Shown: positions 57,963 to 59,854 of the stretch, piece by piece
How the letters are laid out: each line of letters opens with the position of its first letter
Position numbering within the stretch: position 1 is the first letter of the stretch
NCBI GenBank assembly: GCA_002898315.1
Contig: BEHV01000010.1
Coordinates: 1 to 64,000 of the forward strand
Direction of reading: 5' to 3'
Length of the DNA: 64,000 nucleotides
Source of the DNA: a bacterium HR19
GTDB taxonomy: Bacteria; Calescibacteriota; Calescibacteriia; Calescibacteriales; Calescibacteriaceae
The notes under the pieces: model-generated
The model's input: the letters and a program-made list of their open reading frames with translations, nothing else
What the model was told of the DNA's origin: nothing
Databases searched by the model: none
Made by a program: the position numbers and the translations under genes

Positions 57963-58562
57963 ATGGTTTTTTTGATGAGCATTTTTGAGGATGCACCTAT
58001 ACCTCTTGAGATCAACAGGATTTTATTTGAAAATGAAAAGTATTTTGTTCATGTTTTTTCTTTTTCATCAGATTGCATAAGTGTTGGGAAAAACACAAGG
58101 GTATTAGAAGGAGAAAATTTCGGTTGTGAGATTTTCAGGAGAAGAACTGGTGGGGGAGCGGTTTATCACAGGAGGGAAGTAGATGTTTGCTTTGCGTTTT
58201 CTTTTCGTTTCAAGGGTATTACGATAAGGGAGATTTTTTCTCGTGTAGCGGATATTTTAAGGCAATTTATCTTGAAGGAATATTCTTTGGGTGATGAGCG
58301 GTTGGTTATTAGAGATAATGGAGATATATTTTTTAACAACATTAAAATTTGTGGCATATCCTCTGCAAGAAAAAGAGATTTTTTTCTCTTTGAAGGTTGT
58401 CTGTTTCCCATCAATACCCAATATAGAACTTACGACCCAATCTTGAATTTTTCCGATGTTTGTTTCTATATGTTTCCACAAAAAGCAGAAAATTTCCTTA
58501 AATTATCCATTTCTCTCTTTGAATTTCTTACTGAGAAAATTCCAGAGGAATTTTACAAATAG
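57963..58562 (+). CDS. lipoate-protein ligase A-like protein
   Basis: A 199-residue member of the LplA/LipM family. RRRTGGGAVYHRR near residue 58 is the lipoate-binding motif and a Lys in NIKICGISSARKRD is the likely catalytic one. LplA attaches lipoate to E2 and GcvH proteins. It is shorter than E. coli LplA (337 residues) and lacks its accessory domain. gcvPA lies in this window, so a glycine-cleavage link is plausible but unproven. A second ATG at 57975 is possible. It is divergent from flhF. Confidence 0.82.
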   Translation: MVFLMSIFEDAPIPLEINRILFENEKYFVHVFSFSSDCISVGKNTRVLEGENFGCEIFRRRTGGGAVYHRREVDVCFAFSFRFKGITIREIFSRVADILRQFILKEYSLGDERLVIRDNGDIFFNNIKICGISSARKRDFFLFEGCLFPINTQYRTYDPILNFSDVCFYMFPQKAENFLKLSISLFEFLTEKIPEEFYK

Positions 58563-58704
58563 TAAAATCCAAAATTTCTTGAAAAAACCTTATTACTGCG
58601 AAAAAAAAATTAATATTTTTTTAAAGAAAAGTTTCAGGATTTTGACATATTATGCAAGAATTTATTATAATTTATAAATAAAGGGAGATTAAAATTTTAA
58701 GATT

Positions 58705-59784
58705 ATGAAAATAGATGAAAAAAGCGCCTTGATAGTGGTAGATATTCAAAAGGATTTCACCCCCGGAGGCGCTCTTGCGGTCCCCGACGGAGATAAAATA
58801 ATTCCAGTAGTCAACAAATACATAGAAGAGTTCAGAAAGCGGGGAGCCAAAATCTTTGCCACAAGGGATTGGCATCCCGAAAATCATATATCTTTCAGAG
58901 AAAGAGGGGGACCGTGGCCACCGCACTGCGTACAGAACACCGAAGGTGCTCAGTTCCATCCCGACCTCAAACTCCCAGATGATGCAGAAATAATATCAAA
59001 GGCGTTTGACCCAGATAAAGAAGCTTACTCTGGTTTTCAAGGAACAGAGCTTGACGAAAAGTTGAAAAGCTACGGTGTAGAGAAAGTTTTCGTCTGCGGA
59101 CTTGCAACAGATTACTGTGTAAAAAACACCGTCCTTGATGCGATAAAAAACGGATACAAAACTTTTCTCCTATTAGATGCGGTTAAGGGAATAGCCCAAG
59201 ATACCACAGAAAAGGCAATAGAAGAGATGAAGAGTGCGGGAGCCGAAATAATTACCATAGACCAGATTAAGTCCGAAGAAGAAACACTTCCTGAAAAATT
59301 AGAGAAAAAGGTTCAGGAGATAAAAGAAGTTGCAGAAGCCAAATTAGAGGAGGTTATATCAGAGACGGGGGAGAGGATTTCGGAAGCGGGAGAAAAACTG
59401 AAGAAAGAAGTTGAGAAGACAAGAAAGAAAGCCGAAAAAGTCATAAAGAGAGAGCAGAAAAAACTCAAAAAGAAAGTAGAGAAGACCAAAAAAGAGGTTT
59501 CAAAGAAGGTCAAAAAAGCGGTAGAAAGTGTTGCAAGTATGATAGGGCGGGTTGCTTCAAAGTTAAAAGATACTAAAAAACAAAAAATTTCAGAGCCGAA
59601 GAAAAAACCCCTACAGAAAAAGAAAGTTCAAGCAAAAAGGACTGCTCACAAAGGTAAAATTTCACCCGGGGGCGGGAAATCCCCCCGGGAAAGAAAAAAA
59701 GGAGGTGGAAAAACCATGCCGGCAAAGAAGTCAGCGGCAAAAGCAAAAAAAGGCAAAAAAACAGCAAAGAAAAGCAAAAAATAA
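58705..59784 (+). CDS. pncA: nicotinamidase fused to a lysine-rich histone-H1-like tail
   Basis: A 359-residue protein. Residues 1-190 are a complete nicotinamidase: catalytic Asp13, Lys99 and Cys138, and metal ligands Asp55, His57 and His74 (in RDWHPENH and PPHCVQ). The enzyme makes nicotinate from nicotinamide for NAD salvage. Residues 191-359 are a different kind of sequence: first a Glu/Lys coiled coil, then a Lys/Ala-rich stretch ending SAAKAKKGKKTAKKSKK, like bacterial H1-like or AlgP tails that bind DNA or RNA. An internal ribosome site and ATG at 59700-59716 could make the last 22 residues alone. I know no such fusion. Confidence 0.85.
   Translation: MKIDEKSALIVVDIQKDFTPGGALAVPDGDKIIPVVNKYIEEFRKRGAKIFATRDWHPENHISFRERGGPWPPHCVQNTEGAQFHPDLKLPDDAEIISKAFDPDKEAYSGFQGTELDEKLKSYGVEKVFVCGLATDYCVKNTVLDAIKNGYKTFLLLDAVKGIAQDTTEKAIEEMKSAGAEIITIDQIKSEEETLPEKLEKKVQEIKEVAEAKLEEVISETGERISEAGEKLKKEVEKTRKKAEKVIKREQKKLKKKVEKTKKEVSKKVKKAVESVASMIGRVASKLKDTKKQKISEPKKKPLQKKKVQAKRTAHKGKISPGGGKSPRERKKGGGKTMPAKKSAAKAKKGKKTAKKSKK
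59665..59689 (+). promoter_or_regulatory. perfect 8-bp GC hairpin within the nicotinamidase tail
   Basis: CCCGGGGG (59665-59672) and CCCCCGGG (59682-59689) pair perfectly around a nine-base loop. It stands 11 bases upstream of a GGAGGT ribosome site and internal ATG. It is far richer in GC than its surroundings. It may regulate the internal start or pause the ribosome; either is a guess. Confidence 0.5.
59716..59784 (+). CDS. possible nested 22-residue lysine/alanine peptide, internal start in frame
   Basis: The ATG at 59716 is in frame with the nicotinamidase. GGAGGT ends ten bases before it, one of the best ribosome sites in the region. The product MPAKKSAAKAKKGKKTAKKSKK would be a tiny basic peptide like an H1-type tail. 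It is in frame with a longer gene, so there is no independent coding evidence. Confidence 0.3.
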   Translation: MPAKKSAAKAKKGKKTAKKSKK

Positions 59785-59829: not shown

Positions 59830-59854
59830 AGGGGGGAGGGTTTTTCTCCCCCCT
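59830..59854 (-). terminator. strong GC hairpin between nicotinamidase and murG; U-tract on the minus strand
   Basis: A nine-base-pair stem (AGGGGGGAG with CTCCCCCCT) has a seven-base loop. After the hairpin the plus strand lacks a U-tract, but read on the minus strand a T-rich run follows. No minus-strand gene ends here, so it could stop antisense RNA or simply be a stable 3' end for the nicotinamidase mRNA. Confidence 0.45.

Follow-up and report, generated by a model that had tools for sequence, protein, structure and literature searches.

A single gene of an uncultured bacterium, spanning positions 58705 to 59784 of the 64,000 nucleotide stretch of DNA analysed here (the window), probably encodes two products by internal in-frame initiation, namely a nicotinamidase with a basic C-terminal tail and a free Lys/Ala-rich peptide. 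Initiation at 58705 would yield a 359-residue nicotinamidase whose C-terminal extension comprises a helical stalk followed by a strongly basic, disordered tail. Initiation at the in-frame ATG at 59716 would yield a peptide of 22 residues; this ATG follows a near-perfect Shine-Dalgarno sequence, and a hairpin further upstream in the mRNA would isolate the start. Both products would be expected to bind polyanions (DNA, RNA or polyphosphate); the tail would tether the enzyme to them and the free peptide would act as a small histone-like condensing protein. The comparisons below draw on a family sample of five genomes (G000 to G004, with G000 the source genome) from three genera, all uncultured assemblies, two of which are close relatives. 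The features of the locus are as follows.

58642-58671, plus strand: promoter TTGACA-18-TATAAT, 12 of 12 consensus positions, identified by consensus match only
58705-59784, plus strand: full-length open reading frame, 359 aa, nicotinamidase with basic tail, conserved in all five family genomes
58723-59265, plus strand: nicotinamidase (isochorismatase-fold) domain, residues 7-187, from profiles, solved-structure match, alignment and AlphaFold
59290-59589, plus strand: Lys/Glu-rich helical stalk, residues 196-295, from AlphaFold helices, with dN/dS 0.10 (residues 188-291)
59590-59715, plus strand: disordered Lys-rich linker, residues 296-337, pLDDT below 50, fast-evolving to residue 318 (dN/dS 0.39, residues 292-318)
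59660-59696, plus strand: GC-rich mRNA hairpin within the coding region, its core at 59665-59689, with four different stems across all five family genomes, assessed against a synonymous-codon null
59698-59707, plus strand: internal Shine-Dalgarno AAAGGAGGTG, matching the anti-Shine-Dalgarno GGATCACCTCCTTT of the organism's own 16S rRNA, strongest among 213 internal ATGs
59716-59784, plus strand: predicted nested in-frame ORF MPAKKSAAKAKKGKKTAKKSKK, 22 aa, H1-like peptide, with in-frame ATG at identical spacing in all five family genomes
59830-59854, plus strand: G-run/C-run hairpin 3′ of the stop codon, its arms present in all five family genomes, a possible terminator or 3′ stabiliser

The Nicotinamidase Domain

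The product of 58705-59784 is predicted to be a PncA-type nicotinamidase. Residues 7-187 match the Pfam Isochorismatase family (PF00857, E = 1.1e-42), the protein scores 177.2 bits against the NCBIfam nicotinamidase/pyrazinamidase equivalog NF008623, above the curated cut-off of 174, and the closest solved structure is the Pyrococcus horikoshii enzyme (1ilw/1im5, E = 1.7e-77). Residues D13, K99, C138, D55, H57, H61 and H74 are invariant in an alignment of 16 sequences; following the roles known for PncA, we take the first three to be the Asp-Lys-Cys triad and the remaining four to be the Asp/His metal ligands, so that the full set of a PncA-type nicotinamidase is present. The original prediction of a complete enzyme part, with its catalytic and metal residues, is borne out by the equivalog score and these invariant positions. 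AlphaFold models the domain as well folded except for a loop at approximately residues 65-72. No other PF00857 protein was found in the genome, which also encodes nicotinate phosphoribosyltransferase, the next enzyme of NAD salvage.

The perfect 12 of 12 sigma-70 consensus promoter closely precedes the gene, despite the weak Shine-Dalgarno at the full-length start. The adjoining upstream gene (57963-58562), presumably encoding a small lipoate-ligase-family protein as recognised by eye, neighbours the nicotinamidase gene in all five genomes, unlike the gene downstream, which is variously murG, a nucleotidyltransferase gene or a convergent gene. Because the downstream gene differs between genomes, the internal start signals and the hairpin are assigned to the nicotinamidase gene.

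A Conserved C-Terminal Tail

The fusion of enzyme and tail is genuine: it is shared by three genera and evolves under purifying selection. The tail extends approximately 168 residues C-terminal of the nicotinamidase domain and is kept in all five family genomes with lengths of 158 to 194 residues; 211 to 247 residues follow the catalytic Cys inside the family, against none exceeding 100 outside it among the 85 nicotinamidase-like loci with a motif-readable frame, a count that leaves out 25 more divergent loci unreadable by motif. The nicotinamidases of the nearest kin beyond the family, which are placed as "same domain" only, share approximately 50-60% identity at best and end near the end of the domain. 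On this sampling, the tail is a lineage trait of the bacterial family. Between G000 and G002, dN/dS is 0.04 for the enzyme, 0.10 for the stalk, 0.39 for the linker (residues 292-318) and 0.18 for the whole tail, and this last, low value indicates that the tail is translated and selected as protein.

There is a vanishingly small chance that the fusion is an artefact in which a frame error or misassembly has run two genes together. No point in its favour was found; the identical fusion is open in five assemblies with tails of differing length, two of which recur in a second collection, and dN/dS is low on either side of the junction. The agreement of the five genomes led to its rejection. Both findings that had been named in advance as fatal to the fusion, close relatives without the tail and a missed frame error dividing two genes, are thereby absent, since every family genome searched for tail-bearing homologues keeps the tail and the frame is open in each.

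The tail was originally described as 169 residues of coiled coil and Lys/Ala-rich sequence; the length and the order of helix followed by Lys-rich sequence stand, but a Lys/Ala-rich composition is confined to the last 22 residues (50% K, 23% A), the stalk being Lys/Glu-rich and the linker Lys/Gly-rich. AlphaFold places helices at residues 196-220 and 226-295 with moderate confidence, and pLDDT falls below 50 across residues 290-359, indicating a disordered Lys-rich part of approximately 65 residues. The linker and nested part together (residues 292-359) carry a net charge of +27. A tail-query search for paralogous tails returned no further match in G000 or G002; its sensitivity was so low that even the tails known from G001, G003 and G004 escaped it, and the result therefore carries little weight.

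An Internal Start Signal within the Tail

The motif KGGGKxM near the C-terminus is encoded as AAA GGA GGT GGR AAA NCN ATG in all five family genomes, and AAAGGAGGTGGRAAANCNATG is accordingly found in frame in each, comprising an anti-Shine-Dalgarno match of approximately 10 nt followed at identical spacing by an in-frame ATG (59716 here). A conserved in-frame Met with its Shine-Dalgarno inside a longer gene, the pattern expected of an internal start, is thus present throughout the sample. The 16S rRNA of the genome ends in GGATCACCTCCTTT, and therefore AAAGGAGGTG pairs with it over approximately 10 nt. The Shine-Dalgarno energy at 59716 is -16.5 kcal/mol, first among the 213 in-frame internal ATGs in the window, with the runner-up at -12.3, and this signal outscores 65 of the 67 gene starts in the window; the full-length start at 58705 has a Shine-Dalgarno of only -2.8 kcal/mol. 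A genome search with AAAGGAGGTGGAAAANNNATG gave exactly two perfect matches, the tail site and the start of the gene encoding HU (C13:12474-12743, minus strand), whose ATG follows the second match of this 21-nt signal. A leader of the same kind precedes HU in G002 and G001. A looser search, run on five genomes of which four belong to the family, detected no second such site in those four.

When the protein was held fixed and synonymous codons were drawn at random (3000 draws per genome), the Shine-Dalgarno alone was matched or beaten in 173 to 351 draws per genome, making it only mildly better than the alternatives. Because GGAGG readily arises in codons for KGGGK, the Shine-Dalgarno taken by itself is no more than suggestive against this null; it gains weight from the invariant Met, the fixed spacing and the parallel with HU. 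These same observations bear on the possibility that the full-length fusion is the sole product. In that case the tail would be a disordered anchor that binds polyanions, and the hairpin and Shine-Dalgarno-like stretch would either slow the ribosome or be side effects of the conserved KGGGK peptide. The codon tendency, the weak significance of the Shine-Dalgarno by itself, and a frame that is open and under purifying selection throughout the tail all agree with a fusion made alone, however this explanation is unlikely, as it does not account for an invariant Met at fixed spacing, a start signal identical to that of HU, or a hairpin kept while its sequence changes. Programmed frameshifting at the A-runs near the Shine-Dalgarno was also considered and set aside; an ATG at fixed distance fits initiation, and the other frames downstream are not conserved.

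Hairpins Flanking the Nested Frame

Directly upstream of the internal Shine-Dalgarno, a GC-rich hairpin can form in all five family genomes, with stems CCCGGGGG/CCCCCGGG in G000 and G002, TTCCCC-GGAGA/TCTCC-GGGGAA in G001, TTTACCCCGAG/CTCGGGGTAAA in G004 and the 12-pair TTTCCCAGAGGG in G003. The predicted fold is retained while the stem sequence changes between lineages. Under the same synonymous-codon null, an equally stable hairpin arose in none of 3000 draws for G001, G004 and G003, in 41 of 3000 for G000 and in 28 of 3000 for G002. Between G000 and G002, dS falls from approximately 0.5 to approximately 0.2 across the hairpin, Shine-Dalgarno and nested ORF, estimates that for such short regions rest on two to three changes. 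A repeat or mobile element was rejected as the source of the hairpin, which is single copy in the window.

It is very improbable that the internal hairpin terminates transcription of the opposite strand. T-rich sequence does follow it on the minus strand in some relatives, however the terminator scan does not place it among minus-strand terminators, and in G000, G002, G004 and G003 the next downstream gene is a plus-strand gene, which leaves no minus-strand gene whose transcripts it could end; gene order led to the rejection of this candidate.

The second hairpin, 3′ of the stop codon, may be a terminator or 3′ stabiliser; the terminator scan scores it on the minus strand only, and its flanking sequence differs among the five genomes. 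Since hairpins flank the nested ORF in every family genome, the 3′ end could conceivably exist as a small mRNA, or small RNA, of approximately 150-200 nt that is transcribed on its own or released by processing and runs from the internal hairpin to the post-stop hairpin, with the fusion incidental. This is improbable; no plus-strand site resembling a promoter turned up close upstream, and the frame is open and in phase through the junction in five genomes whose tails differ in length. Such an RNA could nonetheless exist alongside a gene with two protein products.

The Predicted Nested Peptide

A conserved hairpin, ribosome-binding site and ATG lead into the most H1-like stretch of the tail, which is therefore probably translated as a small protein in its own right as well. 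Double coding of this segment is well supported by sequence. Among the five family genomes the nested ORF encodes 19 to 27 residues with a net charge of +9 to +12, the predicted peptides of relatives including MAAKKTAKKPAAKGKKPAAKKSASKKK, MATTKKGSAKPKQKAKSKKAKK and MATKKAAAGKKKTATKKKK, and G000 and G002 show zero amino-acid changes across it. The composition of the peptide leads one to expect binding to DNA, RNA or polyphosphate; in its low complexity and in having a small residue next to the initial Met, it appears to resemble short bacterial H1-like proteins. HU, an ordinary nucleoid protein, was found in all five family genomes, so the nested peptide would not be the sole nucleoid protein. 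A further reading, possible but doubtful, is that the enzyme gene also gives rise to an abundant histone-H1-like micro-protein, made from a start signal identical to that of HU on a structured mRNA, linking NAD salvage with nucleoid packing.

If the two-product reading is correct, a housekeeping enzyme gene can retain a DNA-condensing micro-protein that gene callers do not see, and in this uncultured lineage NAD metabolism is joined to the binding of the nucleoid or of polyanions. The signature of a conserved internal Shine-Dalgarno with a hairpin kept in fold but varying in sequence is searchable in other genomes with basic tails.

Comparison with Known Systems

Neither a nicotinamidase with an H1-like tail nor a nested H1-like micro-gene ending an enzyme gene was found in the literature searched, which lay mostly outside subscription journals; within that scope, the initial impression that no fusion of this kind had been described holds. 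The protein shares its domain, triad and metal ligands with PncA-type nicotinamidases (NF008623; P. horikoshii 1im5/1ilw, M. tuberculosis PncA 3pl1), but differs from them in the approximately 168 extra C-terminal residues and the predicted start site within these. A different C-terminal extension, of approximately 45 residues, occurs in nicotinamidases of Bathyarchaeota/Nitrososphaerota (L046:3001-3708, L071:3001-3708 and L070:3001-3705), where it ends in a common KKARMRPRG-like basic motif without a long stalk.

H1-like bacterial tails are already established. In the AlgP/PhaF proteins of Pseudomonas, a helical region is followed by a disordered Lys-rich H1-like tail that binds DNA and tethers granules, which shows that such an arrangement can hold a cargo at the nucleoid (PMC9239181). 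The nicotinamidase tail likewise passes from a helical part to a disordered, strongly basic Lys-rich C-terminus, but it is joined to an enzyme, its DNA binding is only putative, and KPAA-type tandem repeats are lacking; among the five family tails compared, there are none in that of G000 and a few related motifs in G001 only. Because these repeats are absent, the comparison is one of analogy and not of membership. Binding to nucleic acid or the nucleoid is predicted from the composition of the tail.

Internal initiation giving rise to a C-terminal small protein is likewise established, as for Cas11, whose synthesis starts in frame at a site inside cas8/cas10; in Haloferax a potential Shine-Dalgarno accompanies that start (PMC11899642). 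The likeness lies in one gene with two in-frame products, the short one C-terminal from an internal Met, as is predicted here; the proteins themselves are unrelated, and in this family the short product would be a Lys-rich peptide of 19-27 aa with a hairpin ahead of its start.
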